From the IMG/VR virus record IMGVR_UViG_3300034355_000282, positions 1-33,608 of that record: 33,608 nucleotides of DNA. One strand, 5' to 3'. The translations under genes were made by a program, and so were the position numbers. Below are positions 1 to 33,608 of this stretch, piece by piece. Each line of letters opens with the position of its first letter. Position 1 is the first letter of the stretch. This DNA comes from a virus. Under the pieces are notes generated by a model that searched no databases, was not told the DNA's origin, and saw only the letters and a program-made list of their open reading frames with translations.

Positions 1-403
1 GTGCTGATTGTGCTGCTAACTCTGTTTTAAGGTCTTTAACCTCATTTTTGTTAATGTTAGCTAAGGCTGTTTGAATGGCAGCTTCTACGTCTTCCATTTT
101 AACGGGTTGGCTTGCTTCAACCTCAACTTCAACTACAGGCTCGCTTTCAGGTACTTTGATGTCGGTAACAAAACCACCCTCGGTAGTTACTAATGTGCCG
201 TCTTCTAATTCGTGGGTTGCATCTTGTGCGGCTTCTATTTGTCCACCAGCATCAATAACATTTAGCTTAGTGCCAACGTTAAGTTCGCCCTCGTATTGCA
301 CGATAGTTCCGTCTTTAAGTTTATCTTCAATAAACTTATGTTCAGCGTTTAGCTTTAATTTAATGCGTTCAATAACGCTTTTGATGTCTTGTGTTAAACT
401 CAT
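1..403 (-). CDS. Capsid scaffold-like protein, partial (C-terminus cut by window edge)
   Basis: This is the N-terminal 134 codons of the same acidic protein encoded in full at 32573-33142. It starts MSLTQDIKSVIERIKLKLNA, so the start codon is the complement of 401-403. It is an internal-scaffold candidate because it lies between the prohead protease and, across the circular join, the major capsid gene, and because it is charged, low in aromatics and partly coiled-coil. Compared with the full copy it has seven residue changes: M25I, A27D, G55Q, Q57E, P58A, E60Q and N61D (full copy first). Five of these fall within residues 55-61. The reading frame is intact up to the window edge, so the truncation is only positional. 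Confidence 0.7.
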   Translation of the reverse strand, partial: MSLTQDIKSVIERIKLKLNAEHKFIEDKLKDGTIVQYEGELNVGTKLNVIDAGGQIEAAQDATHELEDGTLVTTEGGFVTDIKVPESEPVVEVEVEASQPVKMEDVEAAIQTALANINKNEVKDLKTELAAQSA

Positions 404-869
404 TGCTTTTTTATTTATAAAATACATTAAATTAAATGTGTGCCATTAGGTACTCCAAGTCAGCTAAAGCATCGTGTATCTCTGCTAACTCCTCTTGTGG
501 TACGTCTTCTACTTTAACGTGGTTAAATATCCCCTCAACACTAAAGCCTTTCATCTCTCCTGATTTAATTTTTTCCCACACCATATCGTTGTTGACTTTA
601 AAAGAGCCTACCCAACTACCCTCTGGTAAGTCTTGGAATTGTATTCCCCTGGTCTTGTCAATAATCATACTCTCGTACATCACAACACCGTCTATCAACT
701 CACCATTGTGTTGAAGATTAACCTTAGACTGATAGCCCATTTCAAAATAACGTTGCGCTATGGCTTCTATAGTTTGTGCATCAAACTGAACGTAGAACTC
801 ACGCCCTCCTATGTTTCGGTAAATAGGCATATCGGCAACCATTAAAGCCCCGGTAACTATTCGCCTATC
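1..869. repeat. Left copy of 869-bp terminal direct repeat
   Basis: This segment matches 32740-33608 base for base in register with a constant offset of 32739. I count 45 substitutions and no insertions or deletions, about 95% identity. It covers most of the scaffold gene, the short spacer, and the 3-prime two thirds of the protease gene. The simplest reading is that the contig runs once around a circular or terminally redundant genome and overlaps itself, with the two ends taken from different strain variants. A true tandem duplication is possible but less likely. Confidence 0.85.
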
Positions 870-1016
870 CCCATTTTCGCTAAAGGCGAACTCATAGTGT
901 TTAGAGTACGCCATAAATGAACGTTCTATTGCGGGATGGTCAACTATTGCCACCGCATCAACGCCAGTAGTAAAATCAAAGTCATCTATGTGAACTTTGT
1001 ATAGTGGTAATTCCAT
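432..1016 (-). CDS. Prohead maturation protease, XkdF-like (Peptidase_S78_2 type)
   Basis: A 194-residue protein resembling the XkdF-like putative serine proteases that mature phage capsids by cleaving scaffold and capsid precursor. Visible family features are an N-terminal segment GVDAVAIVDHPAIERSF, a central HNGELIDGVV stretch with the candidate catalytic His103, and the conserved SGEMKGFSVEG block with candidate nucleophile Ser159. Spacing and order fit the family. The gene is followed by the scaffold gene 28 bases downstream, and then by the major capsid gene across the circular join, the usual order for a capsid maturation module. The start at 1016 gives the N-terminus expected for the family. 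A second copy of the 3-prime part at 33171-33608 encodes identical protein over 146 codons despite 16 silent changes. Confidence 0.8.
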   Translation of the reverse strand: MELPLYKVHIDDFDFTTGVDAVAIVDHPAIERSFMAYSKHYEFAFSENGDRRIVTGALMVADMPIYRNIGGREFYVQFDAQTIEAIAQRYFEMGYQSKVNLQHNGELIDGVVMYESMIIDKTRGIQFQDLPEGSWVGSFKVNNDMVWEKIKSGEMKGFSVEGIFNHVKVEDVPQEELAEIHDALADLEYLMAHI

Positions 1017-1049
1017 AATATTAATATGTTAGTATTGTTATTAGTGCCA

Positions 1050-2819
1050 TTAGATTGTTATAAGAGCTTTCTTTTTGTTTTGCTGTACGCCCATTTGACT
1101 GTTGGTAATATCGCTTTCTACAACGTACACCTTAAAGTTTTCGCCCTCTTGTATTAAACCGCTTGTGTTAGATGGAGGTTGTATGCTTGGGGGTGTTATG
1201 CCTCCCGCTGTTGGTAGACTTAAATTGCCACCACCGCCACCTACTTGGTTTATTGCAGGTTCTTGTAATGCTTTTTTTGCCGATGCCATTGCGGCTAATA
1301 CAGATGCTATGCCGCTTGTTATATAAGCCACTTGTAAAAATGGTGCTGCTGGTCCACCGGCTGCTGCCGCTTGGGTTGCCCCTGCAATAGTAGATGCAAT
1401 AGAACGTGCCGTGTCAATAGCTATTTGCGCTATAGCTAATGTTTTTTGAAAAGCTGTGTTTTTCTTTCCGTTGCCTGATAGTAATTCTCCTAAAGCGGTT
1501 AGCCCGTTTAGTGTGTTTTGGGCTATCATAAACTTAGCATCTTGTATATCTTTAGCATCTTGTATCTGTTGCTTTTTAGATATATCGCTAACATCTGCCG
1601 CCTCTTGTGCTGCTATTCTTTGTTGCTCAATTAACTTTTGGTTAAAGTCCTTATTCTCATCTAATTCTTTTTTCCTTAGTTCAGCATTTTTTAGTCCTTT
1701 TTCATTCTCAATTTTATCTAACTCTTGCACTAATTTTAATCTACTTTCAATTGAAGATTTATCTTCGGCATCTTTTTCTTTAGCGTTTTTTCTTCTTTCT
1801 TCTAAGTCTTTTTTTGCTCTTTCTATTCCCTTATCAATATAGTATTGGTCTATCTCATCTTGTTTGGCTAATGATAATGCACGTTGATCACGAACAAACT
1901 TTTCAAAATTAGATTGGTCTTCTAAGTTTGTAAACATTTGTGTGCCCATTTTATCTGTATATTCAGTATAATCTATTGCACCTTTAAGTCGCAGGTCTAT
2001 TATTTCTTTTTCTTTTTTTAGTATTTCATCTTGCGGCTTGTGTTGTAATTTCATAAGCCTTAATTGATTTTCTAATATTTTAACATTTCCTGATAGTTTT
2101 CCACCCTCTTCCGCTAAGATTTTTAAATTTTTAGAACGGTCTGTGTTAAAATCAGCCATTTCCTGATTTAGTTTTGCCTGTTTTTCGGCGGCATCATTAG
2201 CACTATTGGCATAGTCCATTAGTTTAGATATGGCTGCACCTAACCCAACTACCAATAAGCCTATGCCTGTGCTTGCTATTGCTGCTTTTAAGCCATTAAA
2301 AGACAGTCCCGTAGCTGCTACCGCACTTGAAAATGTTTTTTGTATAACGGTAGCTGCGGCTGTTACAAGGTTATTAGCTTGCTGAAATATAGTAGTAGTC
2401 TTAATTGCTTGGCTAATATTTACCCATTGCTTTTGCGCTTCTACTAATGATTGTACACCCATAGCTAACGCACTTGCCGACTGAACTTTTAGCAATAGCT
2501 TTTCTACTTCCTCCGACTTTTGCCCTAATAAACCATACAATCCCGTTATAGTTTGAAAGCCCCCTGCTACACTATTTATTAACGTGCCAAACGCTTGTGC
2601 CTTTGCTCCAGGGTCTAACTGATTAACAGCTTCGTTAACATCTTTCAATTGGTCTGCTAACCCTGCGGCTTTCTGTAAGGCTTGGAAATACTCCTCCGTT
2701 CCCTCCTTAGCTTGCAGGGCTGCTTCTTTGGCTTCCCTTAGTTGCTGCTTTACGGTTTTTATCTTAGCCTCGCTATCGCCAGAACCCTCAACCTTTACTT
2801 TTAAAACTACCTCTTCCAT
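1050..2819 (-). CDS. Tail tape measure protein
   Basis: A 589-residue, Ala/Lys/Glu-rich protein. It has long heptad-like helical stretches at about residues 10-60 and 205-430. There are hydrophobic segments near 160-200 (GLLVVGLGAAISKLMDYA) and 455-515 (AIAQIAIDTARSIASTIAGA), followed by a glycine/proline-rich C-terminus. This composition and layout is typical of tape measure proteins, which set tail length and move into the host envelope during DNA ejection. At about 1.5 angstrom per residue, 589 residues would correspond to a tail of roughly 90 nm, an inference. Its ATG overlaps the stop of the preceding large tail gene (TAATG at 2819), indicating translational coupling. It is encoded after rather than before the two large tail proteins, which is unusual outside Bacteroidota phages. 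Confidence 0.75.
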   Translation of the reverse strand: MEEVVLKVKVEGSGDSEAKIKTVKQQLREAKEAALQAKEGTEEYFQALQKAAGLADQLKDVNEAVNQLDPGAKAQAFGTLINSVAGGFQTITGLYGLLGQKSEEVEKLLLKVQSASALAMGVQSLVEAQKQWVNISQAIKTTTIFQQANNLVTAAATVIQKTFSSAVAATGLSFNGLKAAIASTGIGLLVVGLGAAISKLMDYANSANDAAEKQAKLNQEMADFNTDRSKNLKILAEEGGKLSGNVKILENQLRLMKLQHKPQDEILKKEKEIIDLRLKGAIDYTEYTDKMGTQMFTNLEDQSNFEKFVRDQRALSLAKQDEIDQYYIDKGIERAKKDLEERRKNAKEKDAEDKSSIESRLKLVQELDKIENEKGLKNAELRKKELDENKDFNQKLIEQQRIAAQEAADVSDISKKQQIQDAKDIQDAKFMIAQNTLNGLTALGELLSGNGKKNTAFQKTLAIAQIAIDTARSIASTIAGATQAAAAGGPAAPFLQVAYITSGIASVLAAMASAKKALQEPAINQVGGGGGNLSLPTAGGITPPSIQPPSNTSGLIQEGENFKVYVVESDITNSQMGVQQNKKKALITI

Positions 2820-5734
2820 TAGTATACGTTTACTTCTAATTGGTTAACAGCAGAACCTGCCTTTCTAAATATTATGTAATCTTCTTGTGTGCCATCTAAC
2901 AGCGCAAATGTTGATGGGCTTGGGGTGTTGATATTTACCCCTGCACTAAATCTCAAATCGGTTATATTACCACTCTTTTTAAACCTAAAGTCTACTTCTG
3001 GTGGTGATAGTATTTCTTGTATGTCGTAGCTTGTACTTGCCCCCGCTAATAAGAACCTACTTTGCAGGGTATACTCTGCGGGTATGGTTAATGTGTTAGA
3101 ACTAAAAATACTTGCATCGTCTAAGTCTAAGGTTACATCTCCCCTTAAATCTATAACGCTTGGGTTTTTAAGGAATAGCCCCGATTGTGTTATAGTTTGG
3201 TTGTATAGATTTAATGCCGTAACATCACTAACTCCAAACTGAACCGTTATGCCTGATGAGTTTAATAGTGTTACGTTTTCATTGTTGCCCTCCAGTACAT
3301 TGCTATCACCAAATACAACTACACCGCTACTGTTAGCATACACCGTGTTATTCTCCCCCTCTATCATTATACGCATACAGTTGGCGTGTACGCTATTGCC
3401 ATCACCGTTTACCACTAACTGAACGGAACTTGCATCTAAGAAACCGCCCTGCCCGAACCGTATAATCTTACCCGGTAACACCTCACCTGTTAGTGGCTTT
3501 CCATCAACTACAAACCCCGGCTTAACCATTCCACCAATGCTGCTACCTATGCCACCAATAATTGTTTCTTTGGTTACTTGAAAACTTTGCCCGTCTTTAA
3601 TCTTTAAAAACTCGCACTTGGTAAGTTGGTTGCTTAGTGGGTTGTAGTCTTCTATTTTTTGTAGACGTAGGTAGTACCCCTTAATAACATATATTTTGCG
3701 GAATGATAGAAACTCCACGTCTTCTGGTGTTAGCCTTAAATAACAAGTAACTAACTTACTGTTGCTATCGGATAACTCCTCTATCATATCCTTGTAGAAC
3801 TTATTGTATAGGCTGTTGCTTGTATACTCTAAGTTAGGAGGTGCTATGTATGCGTTATATCCGTAGAATAGTTCGTTAGGGTTGCCCCAATTCAATTCTA
3901 CGTCAGGGCTGTATGGGTTATCTAAATGCCCCGCATAAGGGTATTTGTTTAATATGTTGGCAACACTTGTAGGAACGTTAGAGGTAACTATGTAGCTTGG
4001 TGTACTTGTTAGCACCCCACCCCAATACAGTATGCGTATGTTGGTAGCCTTACGTTGTATCGTGTTGTTTTGCTCATCAAACTGATAGATATGCGGAATA
4101 ATACGGTTAGATTGCGTGTTGCCTACTAATGGTGTAGGGCTAAATATAACGTCAATCTTAGATTGATTTTTGCTAAAGTCGTTATCTATAAACTTTTCAA
4201 ACTTACCGTAAACCTCATCGTTGTTTTTTTGGTACTTCTCATTATAGTAGTCTTTGTCCTCTTTGTAGGTAAACAAAAACGACTTGCTATCAAGTTCACC
4301 CATAGGTGTGATAACCATGTCTTGGCTTTCATCTAACTTATCAGTCCAGTCTAAAGTTCTGTTAGCACCCGATTGGTAGTATTGATAGCGTGGCTCTACT
4401 AATATGTTTTTAGGGTTGTCGGGGTCTACTTCTATGTAGAGGTTAAACATCCTGATAAACGAAACAAGTATATCCCTTAGCTTGGTATCGGCAGGGGGCA
4501 ATGCGTTGTTCATTAGCATTGTCATACCCTCTGTAATGGTATCGGTTGCTACACCGTTGTAAAATATAGATGTTGCGGCTACTCTTATTTTTATCTCATC
4601 AAAAGTTAAACCACCGCTTGTTTTAATTAATGTTGCTAAAACTGAATTTATAACTGTAGTTCCGTTTTTTACAAACTCTATAAAGCAAGCTAAAACTACA
4701 TCTTGCTCTTGTGCATACCTTATGCGTACGTTAACATAATCACCAACCACTAAAGATACGTTATCGGCTTGTAGCTGTACGTTAAAAGTGTTAGATGTTC
4801 CCTCTAATACTCCACCATTATACCAATATCCAACAATAACTAAAGTAGTGTTTAGCTTGTAGCTACCATTTTCAACGGGTACAAATCTACCTGATGATGT
4901 GTTAAAGTTACCGCCAGTATCAAAGTTAGGTGCAGTAGTATCGTCATCAAATGGTATAGTGCTACTATTAAAGGTAGGTATAAACGTTCCAAAGAAATCA
5001 GGCGTTTCGTAAAACCCTGTTAAACTTGCTCTAAATGTCCTATCCTGTACATCGGCATTGGTTAGCCTTAAACCATTACCGCTATATGGTATGATTAAAG
5101 ATTTAAAGTAAGTATCGGTTATAAAGTCGGAGGTATAGGTATATCCCGCCAACTCCATTATTCTATCCCAATACTCCTTTGCAAAGATAGCGGGTACAAA
5201 ATCGGTTAGGGTATAAAGGTTGGTTGCCGTTTGGTCATAGTTAATCAAAGGGTAAACATAGCCCGTGCCTATTGTGGGTGTCCAACTTGCCGAAACATTG
5301 GCATAAGTATAGGCATGGTCTAAGTCGCTAAAGTCTAAAGCTGATACGGTCTTATCTCCTAACTCTTGTATTAGCGTTGGGGTGTTGCCTATTATCTGTA
5401 CATCGTAATCTATAAAGTTGGTATCTTTTAAGTATACCCTTAGTAACTGCAAGTCTCCCCTAAATACAGAAACGTCATCAATCAGTAGTTCAACATCGGA
5501 CTTAAGTGCCGGGTTAAACGTTCCGTCAATATCAATCTCAAATATATCGGTAAACAGTTCGTTGTTTAACTTGGTACCTGGGATGCGTATTGTCTTAGAA
5601 TAGTTGCCCTCTCTTGTTTCGGGCTTGCGTATATCCGATATTGAATAGTTTAACGATACAGGAACGTCATCTAATAAGTCTAACTGCGCCCACTCGCTTA
5701 GGTGGTTTGGCTTTATAAATATCTTAGTAACCAT
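2819..5734 (-). CDS. Large tail protein (baseplate hub/tail-associated candidate) with a C-terminal beta-helix
   Basis: A 971-residue protein beginning MVTKIFIKPNHLSEWAQLDL. The N-terminal third (SLNYSISDIRKPETREGNYS, followed by IRIPGT) resembles large tail or baseplate proteins common in Bacteroidota siphophages. It has no recognised enzymatic motif. From about residue 767 to 840 there are short repeats of the form V-x-G-x-x-N-x-V-x-A-N, as expected for turns of a parallel beta-helix, then a beta-rich tail end. The gene lies between the 409-residue tail protein and the tape measure gene, coupled to both through TAATG overlaps (5734 and 2819). The position and size suggest a tail-tip structural protein that may contact the host surface. 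Family assignment is by context and general resemblance only. Confidence 0.55.
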   Translation of the reverse strand: MVTKIFIKPNHLSEWAQLDLLDDVPVSLNYSISDIRKPETREGNYSKTIRIPGTKLNNELFTDIFEIDIDGTFNPALKSDVELLIDDVSVFRGDLQLLRVYLKDTNFIDYDVQIIGNTPTLIQELGDKTVSALDFSDLDHAYTYANVSASWTPTIGTGYVYPLINYDQTATNLYTLTDFVPAIFAKEYWDRIMELAGYTYTSDFITDTYFKSLIIPYSGNGLRLTNADVQDRTFRASLTGFYETPDFFGTFIPTFNSSTIPFDDDTTAPNFDTGGNFNTSSGRFVPVENGSYKLNTTLVIVGYWYNGGVLEGTSNTFNVQLQADNVSLVVGDYVNVRIRYAQEQDVVLACFIEFVKNGTTVINSVLATLIKTSGGLTFDEIKIRVAATSIFYNGVATDTITEGMTMLMNNALPPADTKLRDILVSFIRMFNLYIEVDPDNPKNILVEPRYQYYQSGANRTLDWTDKLDESQDMVITPMGELDSKSFLFTYKEDKDYYNEKYQKNNDEVYGKFEKFIDNDFSKNQSKIDVIFSPTPLVGNTQSNRIIPHIYQFDEQNNTIQRKATNIRILYWGGVLTSTPSYIVTSNVPTSVANILNKYPYAGHLDNPYSPDVELNWGNPNELFYGYNAYIAPPNLEYTSNSLYNKFYKDMIEELSDSNSKLVTCYLRLTPEDVEFLSFRKIYVIKGYYLRLQKIEDYNPLSNQLTKCEFLKIKDGQSFQVTKETIIGGIGSSIGGMVKPGFVVDGKPLTGEVLPGKIIRFGQGGFLDASSVQLVVNGDGNSVHANCMRIMIEGENNTVYANSSGVVVFGDSNVLEGNNENVTLLNSSGITVQFGVSDVTALNLYNQTITQSGLFLKNPSVIDLRGDVTLDLDDASIFSSNTLTIPAEYTLQSRFLLAGASTSYDIQEILSPPEVDFRFKKSGNITDLRFSAGVNINTPSPSTFALLDGTQEDYIIFRKAGSAVNQLEVNVY

Positions 5735-6963
5735 TAGTAGCGTTGCATTTGGTTGGTGTAGCTTGTTTCAAAAGTAACCGTTAGGTTAAAGGTCATATCC
5801 GTTAATGCTTTTTTAGCTATGTAGCTTACATCGGTTATGTTAATGGCTATAAGGTTGCCGTCTTTCTCCCAAAAGATAATAGGGCTGCTTAGTAGTTCCC
5901 TTAACCATTCGCTTTCATAGTCATCAATCCAATCGCTGTTTATTTGATAGGCTGTTTTAACCTCTGTTTGGTATTGGGTTGTTAGCCTATCGGATATGGT
6001 GTAACCAAATGATGAGCCTGTTAACTCTCCTTTCGGCTTCTTGTAATTGTACTTGCTAATTGTGTCGGTCATCTGCGAGCCTTTGATAAAACTAAAGCTA
6101 TCAAACCCGCCTAACCTATTAAGAAAGTGTAGCCGGTACTTGGTATGGTCTGAACAATTAGAAACTATGTTATACGTTTTAGTTACCGAACTTGAGCCAT
6201 TAGGTATGCCTGTATCTAAAGTGCGTATTGTATAGCGTGTTATGTTGCTGTCTATTATCGGTTGGCTGCCACTATTTAAACTTCCACCAGGTATAAGGTT
6301 AAGGCTTGCGGGTGCTGATGGCATGCGTAAGAAACAATCTCCGCTACTTGCGGGTGCGCTGTATGGGTTGTTGACTAAAACGGTTTGCACTAAGGCATTG
6401 CCATTATAGGTCTTAACCTCCGCTTGGCTAAACGTTTGCCCGTTTGGGTTTTGTATCATATACAACCACCCTTTCTCATCAATGCTTACGTTCTGTTCCG
6501 ATGGGCTATTGGTTAGAAACGTGCTACCGCTTGAGCCTAACAAACAAGTACCACTTGAGTAAGTTACAAACTGCTCAAAGTTTATAGCTGCGTTCCAAGC
6601 AAGTATAATATTGCTTTGGGCTAAGTTAGCGTAAACGGTAGGTGTTGCCCCGTACTCCTCCCCTATCCTTATAATGTACCCTTTCCAACTGTTAGCGTTG
6701 GGTGTTACCTCATCAGTAGCTAAGTCAATGTCATCGGTTAGGTAGTTTTCAATTATCCTATGCACGTCAATAACCAACTTGTTAGTGCTGCCCGGATAGA
6801 TGTTTCTCTTTATCCTACGGGTGTAGGTTACATCGCCTAAAAAAACAATGTCAACCACAAACTTAAAGTTAGCTTGCGACTGATTGGTAGTGCTTGCCAC
6901 AAACCAATTCTCATTGTAAGCGGGTGTAAACTTTTGCGGTTCTTGTAATATCGTTATTGCCAT
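5734..6963 (-). CDS. Tail protein, distal-tail-like by position
   Basis: A 409-residue, beta-rich protein starting MAITILQEPQKFTPAYNENW. I see no catalytic motif, signal peptide or membrane segment. The opening (LQEPQ, PAYN) and the VTYTRRIKRNIYPGSTN stretch resemble tail proteins of Bacteroidota phages that sit next to the large hub protein. The C-terminal part (SDWIDDYESEWLRELLSS, then FWEKDGNLIAINITDVSY) looks like a beta-sandwich end domain. The start overlaps the stop of the 971-residue neighbour's upstream partner in TAATG fashion at both borders, so the four genes from 7529 to 1050 form one coupled tail block. A distal-tail or baseplate role is inferred from gene order. Confidence 0.5.
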   Translation of the reverse strand: MAITILQEPQKFTPAYNENWFVASTTNQSQANFKFVVDIVFLGDVTYTRRIKRNIYPGSTNKLVIDVHRIIENYLTDDIDLATDEVTPNANSWKGYIIRIGEEYGATPTVYANLAQSNIILAWNAAINFEQFVTYSSGTCLLGSSGSTFLTNSPSEQNVSIDEKGWLYMIQNPNGQTFSQAEVKTYNGNALVQTVLVNNPYSAPASSGDCFLRMPSAPASLNLIPGGSLNSGSQPIIDSNITRYTIRTLDTGIPNGSSSVTKTYNIVSNCSDHTKYRLHFLNRLGGFDSFSFIKGSQMTDTISKYNYKKPKGELTGSSFGYTISDRLTTQYQTEVKTAYQINSDWIDDYESEWLRELLSSPIIFWEKDGNLIAINITDVSYIAKKALTDMTFNLTVTFETSYTNQMQRY

Positions 6964-7529
6964 TAGTCTCTTATTTCAAAAATTACTTGTTGCCCTAAAA
7001 CTTTTTCTGCTCTCCTTACTAACTGGGTAAATGCCTTTGGGTTTACCACATCAGTATAAAAGTTGCTTGTTTCTATACCGTGTTGTTGGATAGAACGTGC
7101 CATTAAAAACGCTGCTGTATCTAAGGGGTTGTTAGGTGTTTTTCTTATCCCTGCTCTTAGGCTTCTCTTTTTATCGGAGTAACCTTGTATGCTGATACCC
7201 TTGTCCATTATGTACTTTTTTAAAGCTGATACTGGAGGCATCTTATTTGTAAACTTGTACGGGCTGCCTATGCCTTTTAACCGCTTCTTACCTTTACCGT
7301 TACCTTGCACACCCTTGTCCACATACTTCCAATAATCTTGCATTGAAATGCTAACCTCGTTCTCCCCAACTTTTAATAATATGCTTTGACTTAGTAAACC
7401 ATTTGCGTTCCTGTTTTTTTCTGCTAAATTTTTTTGCATATCTTGAACAAGCAACTCGCAAAAGTTGCCAAGCAAGTCAATCATTGCCTGTTCTACGTTT
7501 ACCTTTTTACCCGTTCCTAAGCTTTGCAT
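6963..7529 (-). CDS. HK97 gp10-like neck/tail-completion protein (candidate)
   Basis: A 188-residue basic protein. The middle contains YWKYVDKGVQG followed by a glycine/lysine-rich loop and GSPYKFTNKMPPVSALKKYI. This resembles the HK97 gp10 / tail-completion family, where a conserved Y-x-x-x-V-x-x-G segment precedes a proline-rich turn. Such proteins join the head connector to the tail tube. It lies directly downstream of the tail assembly chaperone. Its first 23 bases overlap the end of the chaperone's -1 frame extension (stop at 7507-7509), which ties its translation to frameshifted ribosomes. Assignment is tentative because only the motif pattern and context support it. Confidence 0.45.
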   Translation of the reverse strand: MQSLGTGKKVNVEQAMIDLLGNFCELLVQDMQKNLAEKNRNANGLLSQSILLKVGENEVSISMQDYWKYVDKGVQGNGKGKKRLKGIGSPYKFTNKMPPVSALKKYIMDKGISIQGYSDKKRSLRAGIRKTPNNPLDTAAFLMARSIQQHGIETSNFYTDVVNPKAFTQLVRRAEKVLGQQVIFEIRD

Positions 7530-7794
7530 TTTTCATCATTAGGTTGCGTATTCTTTCCTTGTCCTTGTAGTATGCCAACATATTTAAAAACTCCACCACG
7601 TTTAGTTGCGTGAAAAAATCCCATTTTTCAGGGCAGTTATTGGAGAGGCTATCCAACGCATTATGCCACCCCCACCTTTCGTTGAACTGACCGACTGCTC
7701 CCGCAATAATTTTGCTGCCACTTTCATCTCCTCCACCGCCTTGTTTATAAAGTAGGTTTCTATATTGGTTGTTAAACCGTTCGTAACTTGATAA
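7507..7794 (-). CDS. Tail assembly chaperone, -1 frameshift extension (95 codons)
   Basis: After the T9 run the -1 frame is open from TTA (7794-7792) to TAA (7509-7507), 95 sense codons. It has no ATG until late in the segment, so independent initiation is unlikely. Translation gives LSSYERFNNQYRNLLYKQ, then a GGGG linker, then FNERWGWHNALDSLSNN and WDFFTQLNVVEFLNMLAYYK, ending KNAKLRNG. The WGW motif followed by a helical L-x-x-L-x-Y-x-x-x-K segment is characteristic of the C-terminal half of siphophage chaperones in this host group. Fused to codons 1-168 it makes a 263-residue protein. It overlaps the unshifted frame for about 63 codons and the next gene by 23 bases. The alternative is a one-base error in the T run, in which case this is simply the end of a single gene. 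Confidence 0.7.
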   Translation of the reverse strand, partial: LSSYERFNNQYRNLLYKQGGGGDESGSKIIAGAVGQFNERWGWHNALDSLSNNCPEKWDFFTQLNVVEFLNMLAYYKDKERIRNLMMKNAKLRNG

Positions 7795-8297
7795 AAAAAA
7801 AGTGCCGCAGGATATGCAACCGAGATAGGCATATACCTGTAAAACTCATCGGCTCGTTCTTTGTGGGCTTTACCATTGTACTTTGAAACTATCAACTTAC
7901 CATACCACGTTTTCTTAGCGGGTAGGTATAGAGTCGCCATTATCTTATGCAGATTGTTAATAGGGTTTTTGATGAACTCGGATAGGTCAATGTATTGCCC
8001 GGCTGTTAGTTCGTTGATTAGTAAATTAGCTTGGTATAGCTTACCGTTTATCTTTATTTGATTGACTGCCTTAGCTTCGGGTAGTTCGTTTAAGAACGCA
8101 ATCTTACCTACCAACGTAGCTAATTGGCTTGCTGTTAGTTCTAAGAATACATCCTCACTTTCTCCCGTAAGTAATGATAGCACCTTAATGTTGCGGTCAA
8201 GTATTCCCTCTGGGTCATCGGTATGTTCTAACTTGGCTATCTTAATAAAAGTGCCAATGGTAACATCTTCTAATTTTGTCGGTATGCTTAATTTCAT
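7602..8297 (-). CDS. Tail assembly chaperone, short (unshifted) product
   Basis: A 231-residue protein starting MKLSIPTKLEDVTIGTFIKI. It resembles Bacteroidota phage tail assembly chaperones: an N-terminal beta segment, an LTAGQYIDL and NLHKIMATLYLPAKK core, then MPISVAYPAALFFYQVTN. The start at 8297 is preferred over an in-frame ATG at 8387. The upstream 30 codons are not protein-like for this family and lie opposite the divergent plus-strand gene and its promoter. Codons 166-168 (CTT TTT TTT) lie in a run of nine T (7793-7801), from which a -1 shift would give a longer chaperone. After the run the unshifted frame continues for 63 more codons and ends with GIMRWIASPITALKNGIFSR. Such chaperones coat the tape measure protein during tail assembly. 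It is the first gene of the tail transcription unit. Confidence 0.65.
   Translation of the reverse strand: MKLSIPTKLEDVTIGTFIKIAKLEHTDDPEGILDRNIKVLSLLTGESEDVFLELTASQLATLVGKIAFLNELPEAKAVNQIKINGKLYQANLLINELTAGQYIDLSEFIKNPINNLHKIMATLYLPAKKTWYGKLIVSKYNGKAHKERADEFYRYMPISVAYPAALFFYQVTNGLTTNIETYFINKAVEEMKVAAKLLREQSVSSTKGGGGIMRWIASPITALKNGIFSRN
7793..7801 (-). other. Slippery run of nine T (candidate programmed -1 frameshift site)
   Basis: On the minus strand the codons are CTT TTT TTT TAT, giving the ideal slippery heptamer T TTT TTT for tandem -1 slippage. It sits exactly where the tail assembly chaperone reading passes from the N-terminal domain to the WGW-containing frame. A run this long could also permit RNA polymerase slippage, or could hide a sequencing length error. 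Confidence 0.6.
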
Positions 8298-8667: not shown

Positions 8668-9855
8668 TTACAAAATATTATAACTTCCTGTACCTCTCCT
8701 TAAAAATAATTGCCAACCTAATGCGTGGGCGTTAACCGTATCATCGTGCATCCCCTGGGGTGCTGAATACTTTACCCCGTTTAAACTGTAAACATACTCA
8801 AAGGCTTCTAACTCCTCTTGATGTATTCCTTGTAAGACTGATGTTCTCCCGTTCTGTAATGCATTAGCAAGCCCTAACATTAGTTCCTGTTTACTGTTGG
8901 CGTTGTATTTAAACCCTATTACATTGCATCCGCTATTCTGCAAGTCCTCCACTATCGGGTCTCCTACCCCCGTGCTATCTATCTGGGCTTGGGTTTTACC
9001 TATTACCTCCTTTATTCTTTTGGTAGTATTCCCCCAATCCATCCTAAAGCGTTCAAAATGGCATATAAGCCCCATAGCGTTTAGCCCTATTATTACCGTG
9101 TAGTCAACTGACTTCGCAAGGTCAATCCCATAACACACCGCTTGGTCTGTTTGGATAGGTGCTAAACAAAGTTTAATATAGTTTAACCCAAAAGGGTTGC
9201 TGCCGTCATCACTTGGTTCGGCTAAGTATAGTTCTCGGAAGACGTGGTCGGGTAAATCTCTTTGGGCTTGCTCTATCTCCTCCTGTTTTAATATCCCCGC
9301 TTCTACTGCATCCCACGCTGTTATTTTATGGTACTCATAATCTTGTTCACCAGCACGGGCTTTTAGCCCTAACCTATACCCCCAATTCTTTTTACCTTTG
9401 GCATTACCTATCAGCTTGCATTTACCGTTGGTTGCTGTTAGTGTTGAACGCAATGCAAACCACGCCTCCTCCCTTGCACGGGTAAACTCATCAAACACAC
9501 AAGCATAAACATCATCACCATAAAGGTTATCGGGCTTCTCTGCTGACTTGAATTGAATGATTGCACCCGTTGGTAGTGTTAGCCTTAGCTTGCTTTCGTT
9601 GATGGTAAAGAAACCACGCACCGTTACTTGCTTAATCATTCGCCTAAAGGCTATCTCTGCTTGAGAGTATGTAGGTGCTACCCACCATACCGATTGGTTA
9701 GTGGTGCATTGCAGGGCTTGTTCAAACAACCAAATGATATGGCTTGCTGTTTTGCCTGACTTGGTTGATGCTTCGCAAATAGTAAACCTTGCCTTGCTAT
9801 CCAGTATAGCCCGTTGGTAGTCTGTTATCTTTGGGCGTTTGTAGGCTATCTTCAC
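8668..9855 (-). CDS. terL: Terminase large subunit
   Basis: A 395-residue ATP-driven DNA packaging motor and headful nuclease. The ATPase domain has a Walker A motif STKSGKT at residues 30-36 and a Walker B VFDE ending at D122-E123. The C-terminal RNase H-like nuclease has candidate metal ligands D245 (GIDLAKS), D293 (IDSTGVGDP) and D371/D372 (MHDDTVNA). Length is slightly short for the family but all core motifs are present. The start overlaps the stop of the upstream lipoprotein gene by four bases (ATGA). It is the last gene of the replication/packaging unit and is followed by an intrinsic terminator. Unlike most siphophages, the portal gene is not adjacent but about 11 kb away around the circle. 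Confidence 0.92.
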   Translation of the reverse strand: MKIAYKRPKITDYQRAILDSKARFTICEASTKSGKTASHIIWLFEQALQCTTNQSVWWVAPTYSQAEIAFRRMIKQVTVRGFFTINESKLRLTLPTGAIIQFKSAEKPDNLYGDDVYACVFDEFTRAREEAWFALRSTLTATNGKCKLIGNAKGKKNWGYRLGLKARAGEQDYEYHKITAWDAVEAGILKQEEIEQAQRDLPDHVFRELYLAEPSDDGSNPFGLNYIKLCLAPIQTDQAVCYGIDLAKSVDYTVIIGLNAMGLICHFERFRMDWGNTTKRIKEVIGKTQAQIDSTGVGDPIVEDLQNSGCNVIGFKYNANSKQELMLGLANALQNGRTSVLQGIHQEELEAFEYVYSLNGVKYSAPQGMHDDTVNAHALGWQLFLRRGTGSYNIL

Positions 9856-12159: not shown

Positions 12160-12881
12160 TAGTATTGCGCTCCGTTATTAAATGGTAAAACTGTTTCATC
12201 TATATGCTCTACTTTTACTGACTTGTCTACAACGTGCCTACCGTAACCAAGTATTTCAGCATCTTCGCAATAGTTTGGGTCATCGGATTGTAGATGTCCT
12301 TTTCTTTGTGAACGCCCCCGGCGAAACTTTAGCACCTCAAACACTTCTTTTTTTATTAATACAAAACCTATATTCCCGTGGTCGCACTCTACTAAGTCGT
12401 TTGGCAAATCAACCGTTCCCCTTTCATTTCCAAATATGTAGCTTGCTTCTTTGTGGTCGTTCCTACCTTTTACAAACCCACCTACCATTGGCTTATTGTG
12501 GCTCATTAGCTTTTTAATTGTGTTTTGCGGTATAACCATATCGCTATCCACAAATAGAATATATTCTGCACCAACATCTAAAGCACATTCTATCGCATCA
12601 TTACGCCCCCTTACAATAGGAACTAACCTTGCTTGGTCTTGGTCAAACTCTGGTTTTTTCCACCAGTTACTCTCATAGTTCCAAAAGTCATAATACAACT
12701 TTGGTAAACGTGGATAGCTTGCAGTTATCAGGTCTTTCCAATTGTCTTTGTCTTTGGTTTCTATGTTGTAGTAAACCTCATAGTTAGGGTAGTCTAACAG
12801 GGTAATACTTTCTAAGGGTATCATTCGGTTATGATACTTCCTATCGCAATGCAGTACGCATACTAATACTTTTGGGTTCAT
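12159..12881 (-). CDS. Glycosyltransferase, GT-A fold
   Basis: A 240-residue enzyme expected to move a sugar from a nucleotide donor to an acceptor. It has the GT-A features: an N-terminal nucleotide-binding strand (KVLVCVLHC), RGRNDAIECAL at 91-101, and a metal-binding DxD as D112-S-D114 (FVDSDMV). There is also a HGNIGFVLI acceptor-side strand, E206-D207 (CEDAEILGYG), and a late His226 (VEHID) that commonly coordinates the metal. The length is that of a compact single-domain transferase. It is coupled to the GT-B gene upstream by a four-base overlap and to the methyltransferase downstream by TAATG, forming a three-gene glycan cassette. Confidence 0.75.
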   Translation of the reverse strand: MNPKVLVCVLHCDRKYHNRMIPLESITLLDYPNYEVYYNIETKDKDNWKDLITASYPRLPKLYYDFWNYESNWWKKPEFDQDQARLVPIVRGRNDAIECALDVGAEYILFVDSDMVIPQNTIKKLMSHNKPMVGGFVKGRNDHKEASYIFGNERGTVDLPNDLVECDHGNIGFVLIKKEVFEVLKFRRGRSQRKGHLQSDDPNYCEDAEILGYGRHVVDKSVKVEHIDETVLPFNNGAQY

Positions 12882-13936
12882 AATGATTTTAGCAGTTTGT
12901 AACGTTTTTCATTAACTTTTGATATGTGATATTTTTCTTTTACTTCTTTGCTTAGGTTGTCGGCTAAATACCTACCGTAGTCAGGTTCGTTAATCAGCTT
13001 ACGCATTGCCTTATACCAGTCTTTATGATTTTTATTCTTATCAATAGCAATGCAATTTACACCATTTTTAATTAAATCTGTATATGGTTTAATATCAGAT
13101 ACTATACACGCCTTGTTCATAAAACCCGCCTCAATCATTTTTAACTCCGACTTGCAGTTGTTAAAGGTGTTATCGTTTAGCGGAACAATACAAGCATCTA
13201 AATGGTTATACCCTAAAGCATAGTTGTAAACATCAGTAGCGTAAACCCTCTCATAATCTTTGCCCCTACCCCTATCCGTAAACACTTGCTCAAATCTACC
13301 GTATTCCGGGCTTTCATCGTTATAGCCAAATAGCTTAACGGTAAACCTACCTTGTAGTTCCCTATCAGCGTGTAGTTGTTTAAACCCGTCTTGCATTAGT
13401 ACAACGTCTTCCCAATGGCATACTCCTCCCATATAGCCTATTCGGTACTTATCACCTGGCACATAGTTAGGTTGGAATTGTGGGTAGATTTCGGGGTAGA
13501 TTGCATTTGGCAAAACCTCTACATTGTGGTTCAGCTTGCTTATCTTTTCGGCTAACTGAACATTGGTTGTCGTAACAAGATCGGCATACTTGATGCTTTC
13601 AATTATCTTTTCGGGGGCTTTAAATATTCGGTACTGTTCTTTAAGAACGTGGAACGCTGATAAGTTCCAGTAGTCATCAATGTCAACTATTATCTTTACT
13701 CCTAATGTTCTTAATTGGTCTGCTATCAGCTTTATGTTTTTAACATCGTTGTGGTGTTCAAACTCCCTTGAGAAGATTACCGCATCAAACTGTTGCAAAA
13801 CCTCATTAGGCATTCCGTTAATAGTGTTGCACCGGGCATACTCTATGTCGGTAGTTTGGGTTAAATGCTGAAAAGGCATCTCCAACCTATAATAGTTGCT
13901 ACCTGATTTATTCTGTTCAACTCCTAAGATTTTCAT
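12878..13936 (-). CDS. Glycosyltransferase, GT-B fold (GT4-like)
   Basis: A 352-residue protein with the two-domain GT-B layout. The first domain includes VDIDDYW (84-90) and ends near the VLPNAI linker at 141-146. The second starts with YRIGYMGG (164-171), a glycine turn that contacts the donor phosphate, and continues to SELKMIEAGFM (263-273), matching the E-x7-E region of GT4 enzymes. It is expected to be a retaining transferase. No membrane segment is seen, so it acts in the cytoplasm. It overlaps the sigma-like gene and the GT-A gene by four bases each. Together with the next two genes it suggests modification of a virion protein, DNA or host glycan. Confidence 0.75.
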   Translation of the reverse strand: MKILGVEQNKSGSNYYRLEMPFQHLTQTTDIEYARCNTINGMPNEVLQQFDAVIFSREFEHHNDVKNIKLIADQLRTLGVKIIVDIDDYWNLSAFHVLKEQYRIFKAPEKIIESIKYADLVTTTNVQLAEKISKLNHNVEVLPNAIYPEIYPQFQPNYVPGDKYRIGYMGGVCHWEDVVLMQDGFKQLHADRELQGRFTVKLFGYNDESPEYGRFEQVFTDRGRGKDYERVYATDVYNYALGYNHLDACIVPLNDNTFNNCKSELKMIEAGFMNKACIVSDIKPYTDLIKNGVNCIAIDKNKNHKDWYKAMRKLINEPDYGRYLADNLSKEVKEKYHISKVNEKRYKLLKSL

Positions 13937-15695: not shown

Positions 15696-16583
15696 TTAGT
15701 CGGTACAAAACCCTGCTTGGCAACCACTACCAGTGCCAAAAAAGAAATCCTGTTGCAGCCCTATTGTTTTTATCTGCTCGTAGGTTGCTTCAGTTTTCCA
15801 TCTTCTTGGCTTGCCCGATTTGCTTTTAATCTTTTTTTCTTGGTCTGCAAACCATTGCATCTTTTCGGGGTTATCGTCCCAATTCTTTCTAAGCTGTTGT
15901 ACGTTTTTCCAAAAGCAGCCAACGCAGTTGCTATCAGACGGAAAGTCTAAGGCTGTTGTTTCTGCCCACTCACGAACCATTCTGTGATTAACTTGGTTTG
16001 TTATCAAAGGGTAGTTAGTTTCTCTCCAATATACATCAGCCCATTTGTTTCTGCCGTTTTTGCTTTTACCAACTATTGCATGGTATGGTTTTTCGTGCTT
16101 AGGAACAAACTTTTTAATGCTTTCGTCATACATATAGCCCCTCTCTATCTCGTCAATTCTATACCCTAAATTCATAATAACCTTTTCTTCATTAAACTTT
16201 TCTTGCCACCAGTAGAAGATGGGGTCTAACTTCATTTCTGTTGTACAGAACCTTCGCATAATATTAGGAACTGCCCGCCTTGATTTGTTTATCTTATCAA
16301 AACTTTTGCCCCTTGTCCAAATTATCTCTTTGCCTAACTTCTGCTCTAAATCAAATATTACTTTTAGCGTCTTATCATCTTCCGCAGAGGCTATAAACTC
16401 GCCATAGGTTTTAATCTTTTCAGCCCCTAATTTATCATTTATAGCCTGTACTATTTGTTTATCTTTTGGGGCGCACTTAGGTTCGTCTATACAAACAACA
16501 GAAAATATATTGTAGTCTGCTGGGTAATTAACAGCCATATAGCTGCTGGTCTTTCCACCTGATAGGCTGTTAACTGTTTTCAT
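15696..16583 (-). CDS. PAPS-reductase-like / PP-loop adenine nucleotide alpha-hydrolase
   Basis: A 295-residue protein with an N-terminal PP-loop SLSGGKTSSYMA (residues 6-17), the ATP-pyrophosphate-binding motif of the PAPS reductase / ATP sulfurylase / thiolase group. RRFCTTEMKLDP places Cys113 in the usual second motif. The C-terminal half adds C220 and C223 (NCVGCFWKN) and C288 and C293 (SGCQAGFC), which could hold an iron-sulfur cluster. It does not look like a full assimilatory CysH. Related phage enzymes are thought to support nucleic-acid modification or sulfur transfer, but substrates are unknown. DndC-type DNA phosphorothioation is an alternative, but no other Dnd gene is present. 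Confidence 0.7.
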   Translation of the reverse strand: MKTVNSLSGGKTSSYMAVNYPADYNIFSVVCIDEPKCAPKDKQIVQAINDKLGAEKIKTYGEFIASAEDDKTLKVIFDLEQKLGKEIIWTRGKSFDKINKSRRAVPNIMRRFCTTEMKLDPIFYWWQEKFNEEKVIMNLGYRIDEIERGYMYDESIKKFVPKHEKPYHAIVGKSKNGRNKWADVYWRETNYPLITNQVNHRMVREWAETTALDFPSDSNCVGCFWKNVQQLRKNWDDNPEKMQWFADQEKKIKSKSGKPRRWKTEATYEQIKTIGLQQDFFFGTGSGCQAGFCTD

Positions 16584-28262: not shown

Positions 28263-28851
28263 AGGTAGAATAACAGTCATCACATAGTAAATCATAATTC
28301 CCTTGATACCTTGTTGCTAAGTCTAATGTTAGCCTTGTTGTTGTACCCATTGCAAAGCCTGTAGTAAATACCCTACGTCTTGGGTATACGGTATCAACTC
28401 CACTACCCGGATTGAAATATAACGGGTATAGTGTACTATTCTGTATGAGGTAGTTAACCAACTTTTCCGCATAGCTTTCCGAGCGTTCCTGATACTTACC
28501 GATAATGTTAGCCATATCTCCCATACTTGGCATAACCGATGCTTCGCCTGTTTTGTTAACTATACCTTTGTTAGTATATTTAAAGGATAGTGCTAACGGG
28601 CTTTCCGACATAATGCGCCAAATTAAGGTAGGCTGTATGTAGTCATTAAGTAAGGTTTGGTTTAGTACTGTTACCGTGTTGGCTGTTACTTGGGTTTTTA
28701 ACTCGTTATACAAACCGCTACCTATCAAGTCCTGTATATATAGGTCTTGGATAGAGATTATCTCTGGGCGCAACTGCTTAAAGTCTACGTTATCGGATAT
28801 GATAGTGTAGTCTTTTAATGTTTGCTCATCTATAAAAATTACTAAGCTCAT
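28249..28851 (-). CDS. Head-tail connector-like protein
   Basis: A 200-residue helical protein from MSLVIFIDEQTLKDYTIISD. The pattern IQDLYIQDLIGSGLYNELKT, then SPLALSFKYTNKGIVNKTGE, recalls head completion/connector proteins that bind below the portal in Bacteroidota siphophages. The start at 28851 is preferred because its ATG overlaps the portal TGA (ATGA). The longer in-frame start at 28878 would overlap the portal by 31 bases. It follows the portal directly, the standard place for a connector. Confidence 0.6.
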   Translation of the reverse strand: MSLVIFIDEQTLKDYTIISDNVDFKQLRPEIISIQDLYIQDLIGSGLYNELKTQVTANTVTVLNQTLLNDYIQPTLIWRIMSESPLALSFKYTNKGIVNKTGEASVMPSMGDMANIIGKYQERSESYAEKLVNYLIQNSTLYPLYFNPGSGVDTVYPRRRVFTTGFAMGTTTRLTLDLATRYQGNYDLLCDDCYSTYGKF

Positions 28852-30659
28852 CGTTTTATAGCTATTACTTGTTGCCAAATGTGCCTACAATAAGGCGTTG
28901 CTGTGTCTGTTCCTTTCTTAGTGTACCAACCTCCACGTTCAGTCCATACATCACGCCCTACTTGTGCGCTGATTAGGTTAATTTCAGCCCTTGTGTATAG
29001 CCTATCCAACTCAATTAATTGGCGGCAAAAATCTCGGCTTGTTGGTAGTATAACATTGCCTTGTACTCGTGGTGCTTTAGCGTATTGGTAACGAACTACT
29101 ATTTCCGCTTTGGGTGTTTCGGGCTTTAGTACGTTAATACGCCCACCGTCAATCTCAATAATAGAATTAGCCGCAAGTGTATCAATCATTTTTACCAACG
29201 CATCAATCTTAATCTTAACCGCCTTAGCTAAGTCAGGAAGAGGTATCTCTGGGTTTGTCCTAAGTATATCAACAACTTGCTTTTCTTTCTCTGTAAGGTC
29301 AGCAAATGCAGCCCTAATAAACTCATTCTCTCCTTGCTCTGCTTCGCTATCGTTATGAAACTTTCTTACCCTTGTTGATACTATGTTGTAATCGGTTGCG
29401 GGTTTACCGCAATTAGCAAATAGGCTTATTACCTTGCTTGTAGCATCATCAGCCGACATCTGTACAGGAATAGCAATAGGCTCTAAACCTATTCTTTCCC
29501 TTAACTCATCACGGGTTAATATTTGGGTTAATATTTGTTCCGAATAAACAACCTCAAGCGGTGCAAACTCTTTTATCTCCACCTCTCCACCAATGCCAGT
29601 TAACTGTAACGCAAAGTTCCAATTATCCTCCATTGCTTTCTGCCTTGCCTGTACATAAGTCTTTTTAAATAACTCATATTTAAGGTCGGTAGCGTTCCTA
29701 TCTCCTAATGCACCCTCTGTTGGTATACCAAATAATTCAGGGCTTGGTATCTTATGCCCCGAATAGATCTCTTGTTGGATTTGCTTGTTTAACTCTAAAA
29801 ACTGTTTATCAAGGTCGGATGGTGCTAACGTATCTACCGTTGGGGCTTGTACGTTTGGTGGAGTAAACGATAAGATAAACCTACCCGCATTGTTAGTACC
29901 GGCAAACTTATTTCTAAATTGCGCCTCTATGTTGTTCTTAGCTTCCTCTGTTGGCTCTCCATTATGGAATGAGATTAAAGTGCTGCTTACAAAACCATTC
30001 TTTAGGTTGTTGAGGTGAAAGTTAGCAACCTCCATATCCATATTAATATACGGTACTGCACCAACATAATCAGGCAATGGATATACATCAGGCTCGTTAC
30101 CCATCTTAGGTCGGTACAACTTATAAGCGTACATCTTAACGCCTTTGTTTATTCCGTTGTAAGCCTGTACTGTTTCAACATCCCTTGCAGCTAATCGGGT
30201 TGACTTCTCCCACTTATCCGATATGTAATATTCTGAACAATCATTGTTAGTCCTTACCTTTGCAAATGGTATGTGGGTAATGTATTTTAATCTACCTACA
30301 CGGTCAAAGATAAACTTCCAATAAAACCCACCAAAAACCTCCAAGTCCATTACCGACTTATACTGCACATCTTCTGCGGTCTCGTATGGGTTAACCAAAT
30401 CTAAATAGGCATTAACACTATCAGCGTTAACACTATCTTTTTTAGCATCTATACCTTTGCCTGTTATGTATTGTACCTTGCCTGTTATAATAGCGTTATG
30501 CTTTGCAGAGCCATTAAGCAATGCAACAAGGTAATCGGGATAGGTGTTACCCTCTCCAAATAATACCCAGGGCTTTGTGCTATCGTGGTTTTTTACCTCC
30601 TTAAATACAGGTGGCGCACTATTTATCAGCTTTACTACTATTAAATTATTATCCTCCAT
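28848..30659 (-). CDS. Portal protein with C-terminal winged-helix and MuF-like extension
   Basis: A 603-residue protein. Residues 1-430 look like a dodecameric portal (FGEGNTYPDYLVALLNGSAK, then NLKNGFVSSTLISF, then SGHKIPSPELFGIPTEGALG), the DNA gateway at one head vertex. Residues 455-512 form a helix-turn-helix pattern (LTEKEKQVVDILRTNPEIPL, then LAKAVKIKIDALVKMIDTLA). Residues 519-603 end with YTRAEINLISAQVGRDVW, RGGWYTKKG and TPYCRHIWQQ. This resembles the conserved C-terminus of Mu gpF-like head morphogenesis proteins, normally a separate gene. The fusion is in one intact frame. Its start overlaps the preceding gene by 11 bases. Confidence 0.75.
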   Translation of the reverse strand: MEDNNLIVVKLINSAPPVFKEVKNHDSTKPWVLFGEGNTYPDYLVALLNGSAKHNAIITGKVQYITGKGIDAKKDSVNADSVNAYLDLVNPYETAEDVQYKSVMDLEVFGGFYWKFIFDRVGRLKYITHIPFAKVRTNNDCSEYYISDKWEKSTRLAARDVETVQAYNGINKGVKMYAYKLYRPKMGNEPDVYPLPDYVGAVPYINMDMEVANFHLNNLKNGFVSSTLISFHNGEPTEEAKNNIEAQFRNKFAGTNNAGRFILSFTPPNVQAPTVDTLAPSDLDKQFLELNKQIQQEIYSGHKIPSPELFGIPTEGALGDRNATDLKYELFKKTYVQARQKAMEDNWNFALQLTGIGGEVEIKEFAPLEVVYSEQILTQILTRDELRERIGLEPIAIPVQMSADDATSKVISLFANCGKPATDYNIVSTRVRKFHNDSEAEQGENEFIRAAFADLTEKEKQVVDILRTNPEIPLPDLAKAVKIKIDALVKMIDTLAANSIIEIDGGRINVLKPETPKAEIVVRYQYAKAPRVQGNVILPTSRDFCRQLIELDRLYTRAEINLISAQVGRDVWTERGGWYTKKGTDTATPYCRHIWQQVIAIKR

Positions 30660-32572: not shown

Positions 32573-33142
32573 TTACTTTTTGTTTGCTGCAAACTTTTGT
32601 GCTGCGGCTTGCATACGCTCTACTACAGTTGCTTTCTCGTTAGCTATTTGTTTGCTGAATGATGTTTTGGTTGGTTTGTCAGCCGGTGCTGATGGGTCTT
32701 CTGCTAACTTCTCAATAACAGCAAACATATCTTTGATAAGTGCTGATTGTGCTGCTAACTCTGTTTTAAGGTCTTTAACCTCATTTTTGTTAATGTTAGC
32801 TAAGGCTGTTTGAATGGCAGCTTCTACGTCTTCCATTTTAACGGGTTGGCTTGCTTCAACCTCAACCTCAACTACAGGCTCGCTTTCAGGTACTTTAATG
32901 TCGGTAACAAAACCACCCTCGGTAGTTACTAATGTACCGTCTTCTAATTCGTGGGTTGCATTTTCAGCAGGCTGTATTCCACCACCTGCATCAATAACAT
33001 TTAGCTTAGTGCCAACGTTAAGTTCGCCCTCGTATTGCACGATTGTACCGTCTTTTAGCTTTGCCTCCATAAACTTATGTTCAGCGTTTAGCTTTAATTT
33101 AATGCGTTCAATAACGCTTTTGATGTCTTGTGTTAAACTCAT
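32573..33142 (-). CDS. Capsid scaffold-like protein, complete copy
   Basis: A 189-residue acidic protein. Residues 1-30 are helical, 30-110 contain Gly/Glu/Val-rich strands, and 105-150 form a helical segment (AAIQTALANINKNEVKDLKT). A proline linker and a basic C-terminus follow (TVVERMQAAAQKFAANKK). A basic C-terminal helix after an acidic body is the usual design of a scaffold that binds the capsid subunit. It lies between protease and major capsid genes, with 25 bases to the capsid start. The other partial copy (1-403) differs by seven residues. Confidence 0.7.
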   Translation of the reverse strand: MSLTQDIKSVIERIKLKLNAEHKFMEAKLKDGTIVQYEGELNVGTKLNVIDAGGGIQPAENATHELEDGTLVTTEGGFVTDIKVPESEPVVEVEVEASQPVKMEDVEAAIQTALANINKNEVKDLKTELAAQSALIKDMFAVIEKLAEDPSAPADKPTKTSFSKQIANEKATVVERMQAAAQKFAANKK

Positions 33143-33608
33143 TGCTTTTTTATTATTAAAACCATTAAAATTAAATGTGTGCCATTAGGTATTCCAAGTC
33201 AGCTAAAGCATCGTGTATCTCTGCTAACTCCTCTTGTGGTACGTCTTCCACTTTAACGTGGTTAAATATTCCCTCAACGCTAAAGCCTTTCATCTCTCCC
33301 GATTTGATTTTCTCCCACACCATATCGTTGTTGACTTTAAAAGAGCCTACCCAACTACCCTCTGGTAAGTCTTGGAATTGTATTCCCCTGGTCTTGTCAA
33401 TAATCATACTTTCGTACATAACAACACCGTCTATCAACTCGCCATTGTGTTGAAGATTTACCTTAGACTGATAGCCCATTTCAAAATAACGCTGCGCTAT
33501 GGCTTCTATGGTTTGTGCATCAAACTGAACGTAGAACTCACGCCCTCCTATGTTTCGGTAAATAGGCATATCGGCAACCATTAAAGCCCCTGTTACTATT
33601 CGCCTGTC
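32740..33608. repeat. Right copy of 869-bp terminal direct repeat
   Basis: This repeats 1-869 in register without indels. The 45 differences split as 22 in the scaffold gene, 7 in the short spacer and 16 in the protease gene, the last all silent. The clean reading frames on both sides show real biological variation rather than read errors. Confidence 0.85.
33171..33608 (-). CDS. Prohead protease, XkdF-like, partial (N-terminus cut by window edge)
   Basis: This is the C-terminal 145 residues of the protease described at 432-1016. The frame is open to the window edge (D-R-R-I-V-T-G-A-L before the internal Met at 33581), so the first Met seen here is not the true start. Protein sequence is identical to the other copy across the shared region, including His and Ser candidates. 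The 16 nucleotide changes are all synonymous, a sign of purifying selection. Confidence 0.8.
   Translation of the reverse strand, partial: DRRIVTGALMVADMPIYRNIGGREFYVQFDAQTIEAIAQRYFEMGYQSKVNLQHNGELIDGVVMYESMIIDKTRGIQFQDLPEGSWVGSFKVNNDMVWEKIKSGEMKGFSVEGIFNHVKVEDVPQEELAEIHDALADLEYLMAHI

Follow-up and report, generated by a model that had tools for sequence, protein, structure and literature searches.

Diverged ends of an uncultivated phage contig read as one locus in two alleles: a 32.7-kb circular map with a tail from a second strain

The phage contig IMGVR_UViG_3300034355_000282, analyzed here over its whole length of 33,608 nucleotides (the window), is a closed circular map of 32,739 bp followed by a 742-base tail from a second strain. 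We hold, with a probability of about 0.95, that a de Bruijn assembly with k=127 produced the contig from a strain mixture of one phage, and that the repeat at its ends is a single locus present as two alleles, A and B. On this reading the 869-bp repeat is no real terminal repeat; one locus is seen twice in two allelic forms. The underlying effect is already known as ordinary assembly behavior and is ordinary as biology.

Direct alignment reproduced the collinear ends, given as about 95% identical in the preliminary description. Positions 1 to 869 match 32740 to 33608 at a constant offset of 32739 with 45 substitutions, no indels and 94.8% identity; the overlap is above chance, since the runner-up end-to-end offset reached 38%. 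When the record itself was queried with window 1-869, two places were returned, namely the two end copies. Absent from the earlier account was the finding that bases 1 to 127 are identical to 32740 to 32866, the first substitution standing at 128. If the 45 substitutions were placed at random, the probability of the first 127 bases being clean would be 0.00067, and that of the first mismatch falling exactly at 128 would be 4e-5. Positions 1-403 hold 22 substitutions, the spacer at 404-431 holds 7, and 432-869 holds 16, the last of them at 867 and followed by 2 bases, where copy B stops at the contig end. Because the second copy of the 127-mer sits 742 bases inside the right contig end, this overlap does not reach both contig ends exactly (Table 1).

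Table 1. Features of the window discussed in the text
Feature	Positions	Strand	Basis
Branch vertex X, copy 1, the contig's starting 127-mer	1..127	.	Alignment and graph; equals 32740-32866
Branch vertex X, copy 2, closure point of the circle (unit 32,739 bp)	32740..32866	.	Alignment and graph
Allele A of the scaffold-like/protease region, running on into the remaining contig	128..869	.	Alignment
Allele B tail, 742 bases, dead end	32867..33608	.	Alignment; 32856-33608 identical to IMGVR_UViG_3300042526_000153
Putative prohead protease (Peptidase_S78_2, XkdF-like), allele A, 194 aa	432..1016	-	PF14550, E 2.4e-14
Same protease, allele B, cut by contig end	33171..33608	-	ORF and codon comparison
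Scaffold-like gene, allele A, across the join	403..1 continuing at 32739..32573	-	ORF reading
Scaffold candidate, 189 aa, between protease and capsid gene, allele B, complete	32573..33142	-	Position only
Probable major capsid protein, 305 aa	31630..32547	-	phrog_1623 and phrog_25898 (head proteins)
Terminase large subunit, used for finding the family	8668..9855	-	Protein family searches

A de Bruijn graph built from the contig with k=127 has a single branching vertex, with one entry and two exits, at contig base 1; both exits continue in homologous sequence, and the right end of the contig is a dead end. In the contig's own graph at k=99 the branch moved to base 29, 28 bases inside, and at k=128 no branch was left. 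Thus, the contig starts exactly at a fork of the k=127 graph. The metaSPAdes run described by JGI authors used k values of 33, 55, 77, 99 and 127, the largest being 127 (PMC10434106), and contigs of the metaSPAdes type are described as ending in maxK-long overlaps where paths branch (PMC10914622). We infer that this record comes from such an assembler with k=127. Terminal repeats equal to the k-mer length have been documented for circular templates (PMC8116208), and strain variants are described as showing up as branches in the graph (PMC10563150). Among 12 aligned relatives, the 127-base block is 100% identical in 2, 98 to 99% in 2 and 82 to 98% in 8; as it is rather conserved in some of them, its identity alone is weaker evidence than its exact length.

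The path most compatible with this graph would start at vertex X, the 127-mer common to the two strains, take strain A's branch once round the circular 32,739-bp map and return to X. It would then leave X by the second exit onto strain B's branch and follow it for 742 bases until that branch ends, probably because of low coverage or a further fork. The preliminary description had reasoned that an assembler merges identical ends, which does not apply to a de Bruijn assembler; the latter leaves a k-long identical overlap, and the 127-base block is here the real closure.

The repeated region encodes a putative prohead protease and a scaffold-like protein. Window 1-403 holds the N-terminal 134 codons of a minus-strand, scaffold-like gene, which reads open through the join in both forms, as expected if base 1 comes after base 32739. 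Its 189-aa product had no match in protein family searches and is a scaffold candidate from its position, where scaffolds often sit. Alleles A and B are both open and intact. Between them, the protease part differs by 16 synonymous and 0 nonsynonymous codons, while the scaffold-like gene carries 11 synonymous and 7 nonsynonymous changes. The abrupt stop of B at the contig end could suggest that copy B reflects noise from sequencing or assembly, with no real allele behind it. This is extremely improbable, given that all 16 protease codon changes are synonymous and that 753 bases of B (32856-33608), the whole divergent part included, occur unchanged in an independent contig, IMGVR_UViG_3300042526_000153, which comes from another metagenome and carries the region once.

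The possibility of a true duplication was weighed against the relatives. In that case, the scaffold-like/protease region would be present twice, in diverged form, in a phage or prophage whose genome extends beyond this contig. Neither copy is disrupted, and a protease that differs only synonymously is what two functional paralogues could show. Among the relatives found by the protease, however, the 869-base stretch was single-copy in 12 out of 12. In 11 of these, the copy is joined to the left part of the window on one side and to the right part on the other; the twelfth (L014) covers 243 bases only, its contig ending inside the copy. The closest long relative, G013 (IMGVR_UViG_3300042939_000090), closes on itself at 127 bases to a unit of 34,846 bp and gave one protease match. 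A duplication would also leave the exact 127-base start unexplained, and we regard it as very improbable. In the protease search of the family contigs, 15 of the 18 matching records gave two rows, both of them falling in a single open frame of equal length, which we read as two pieces of one protease and not as two copies; G031 gave no protease match. With single-copy relatives throughout and copy B alone in the contig of another metagenome, the two haplotypes of one phage population proposed earlier are borne out. So is the circular unit of about 32.7 kb, here 32,739 bp, which the relatives with both flanks and the 127-base closure of G013 support.

Variants of the region appear to be exchanged among strains. 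Copy A is 90 to 97% identical to IMGVR_UViG_3300042526_000153 across three diverged blocks, and its positions 128-869 were found in exact form in none of the other fetched loci, which leaves this contig as the sole known source of the complete allele A. At two variable spots of the scaffold-like protein, G013 has B's variant and then A's, while another relative (L007) has A's and then B's; recombination among strains would give such mixed combinations. Against window 1-869, G013 is 99% identical in the 127-mer, 93 to 95% in the remaining scaffold-like gene and 74 to 82% in the protease part, where the drop marks a sharp switch of allele.

Since A and B strains evidently recombine, with scaffold-like variants in mixed combination on other contigs, one might also think of a terminal-redundancy heterozygote, in which single phage DNA molecules carry different protease/scaffold-like alleles at their ends and one such molecule was caught by the assembly. 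Short-read assembly, however, cannot link ends that lie 31.9 kb apart, and the repeat starts exactly at k. Moreover, four relatives behave alike with overlaps from 202 bp to ~4.2 kb, unlike what a fixed packaging rule would produce. A heterozygote is therefore even less probable than a duplication. Returning to the two-strain assembly, the 1.2 kb leading up to the join are 96 to 99.7% identical to the B-carrying contig, whereas 500-base blocks of window 1-6000 are 92 to 98% identical to it, with one block at 73%. As identity to the B-carrying contig is higher before the join, a circle cut at 32866 may join two strains, and the 32,739-bp sequence may, on these comparisons, be a mix of strains.

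A terminase scan found 534 relatives, of which 80 loci were kept. Every contig of at least 28 kb among these loci was included in a large set (n=18), and both ends of each were compared. Exact end overlaps of 127 bases were found in 3 of the 18 (G013, G022, G026), and exact overlaps of 123 bases in 4 (G014, G024, G025, G028), the latter presumably reflecting the k of another assembler. The 127-base closures give units between 30.9 and 34.8 kb, a range that includes 32,739 bp.

Imperfect end overlaps were seen in four further contigs of the 18. A block of exactly 127 identical bases sits at one terminus of each: G015, G018 and G021 begin with it, and G019 ends with it. The overlap is 202 bp with 4 mismatches in G018 (IMGVR_UViG_3300037502_002003; unit ~31.8 kb), 247 bp with 1 mismatch in G021 (IMGVR_UViG_3300042559_000589; unit ~31.2 kb) and 1401 bp with 97 mismatches in G019 (IMGVR_UViG_3300037508_000609; unit ~31.6 kb); G015 (IMGVR_UViG_3300047557_001190; unit ~33.1 kb) has ~4.2 kb of overlap at 84 to 86% identity, with indels. 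G027 (IMGVR_UViG_3300035126_000208) has a 126-base end overlap behind 13 odd starting bases; by eye, its bases 1-20 look reverse-complementary to bases 63-82, the pattern expected of a snap-back artefact. No end overlap was seen in 6 of the 18 large contigs (G016, G017, G020, G023, G029, G030). The control set consisted of 76 wholly retrieved contigs of less than 22 kb from protease- and terminase-derived loci. None of the 76 overlapped end to end; two had internal matches of 29 to 33 bases that did not reach the ends.

Direct terminal repeats of k length are described for CheckV (PMC8116208) and as "self_circular" in COBRA (PMC10914622), and a contig truncated at 32866 would match them, with a 127-base identical end. 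In contrast to such contigs, the path here ran on through 742 bases of the second strain, and a simple search for identical ends misses this contig as a result. The papers on COBRA (PMC10914622), Phables (PMC10563150) and PenguiN (PMC11443906) describe breaks due to strain variation, in which a branch within a population ends or misroutes a contig, as happened here too; COBRA also describes queries with both ends extending into closely related sequences (PMC10914622). Set against those breaks, the present case has both branches already within one contig.

The preliminary description had also linked the circular unit to headful packaging. A circular assembly graph arises as well from direct terminal repeats and from circular or concatemeric replication forms, so nothing in the present data supports headful packaging, which is a possible mode for this phage. 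Terminal redundancy with circular permutation of the T4/P22 type would likewise yield a circular map; the redundant ends of such phages are the same sequence copied within one molecule, whereas the end copies here differ. PhageTerm is described as deriving the packaging mode from read-start bias (PMC5557969).

The terminase is at most 33.3% identical to those of annotated phages among the best 20 of 173 records. In a genome collection it had 6 matches, 5 of them in assemblies titled Bacteroidetes, Bernardetia or Flammeovirgaceae, including two that fall in one Bernardetia MAG, and 1 in an FCB-group assembly. A Bacteroidota host is therefore likely, but the matched contigs might have been binned with these genomes by mistake. 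A nucleotide search of a phage collection with window 1-8000 returned nothing, and tRNA and Rfam scans of the window were empty. The window also carries, on the minus strand, a phosphoadenosine phosphosulfate reductase-like gene (15696-16583) and a glycosyltransferase-like gene (12878-13936); much of the stretch at 14.7-16.9 kb is without a match in a related contig (L025). The portal gene (28848-30659, minus strand) lies downstream of the protease, scaffold-like and capsid genes, and the terminase gene is far off. This head-gene order, with the portal after the capsid and a distant terminase, seems unusual to us.

The main use of the overlap is as evidence of genome completeness; it is also a reminder that the "genome" was traced through several strains. 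Looking for an exact k-long block at one contig end within an imperfect end overlap is a cheap general test, and it gave four further closures among the 18 family contigs (G015, G018, G019, G021). By the same reading, a contig without identical ends yields the complete map, 32.7 kb in length, of a phage that has many uncultivated relatives.
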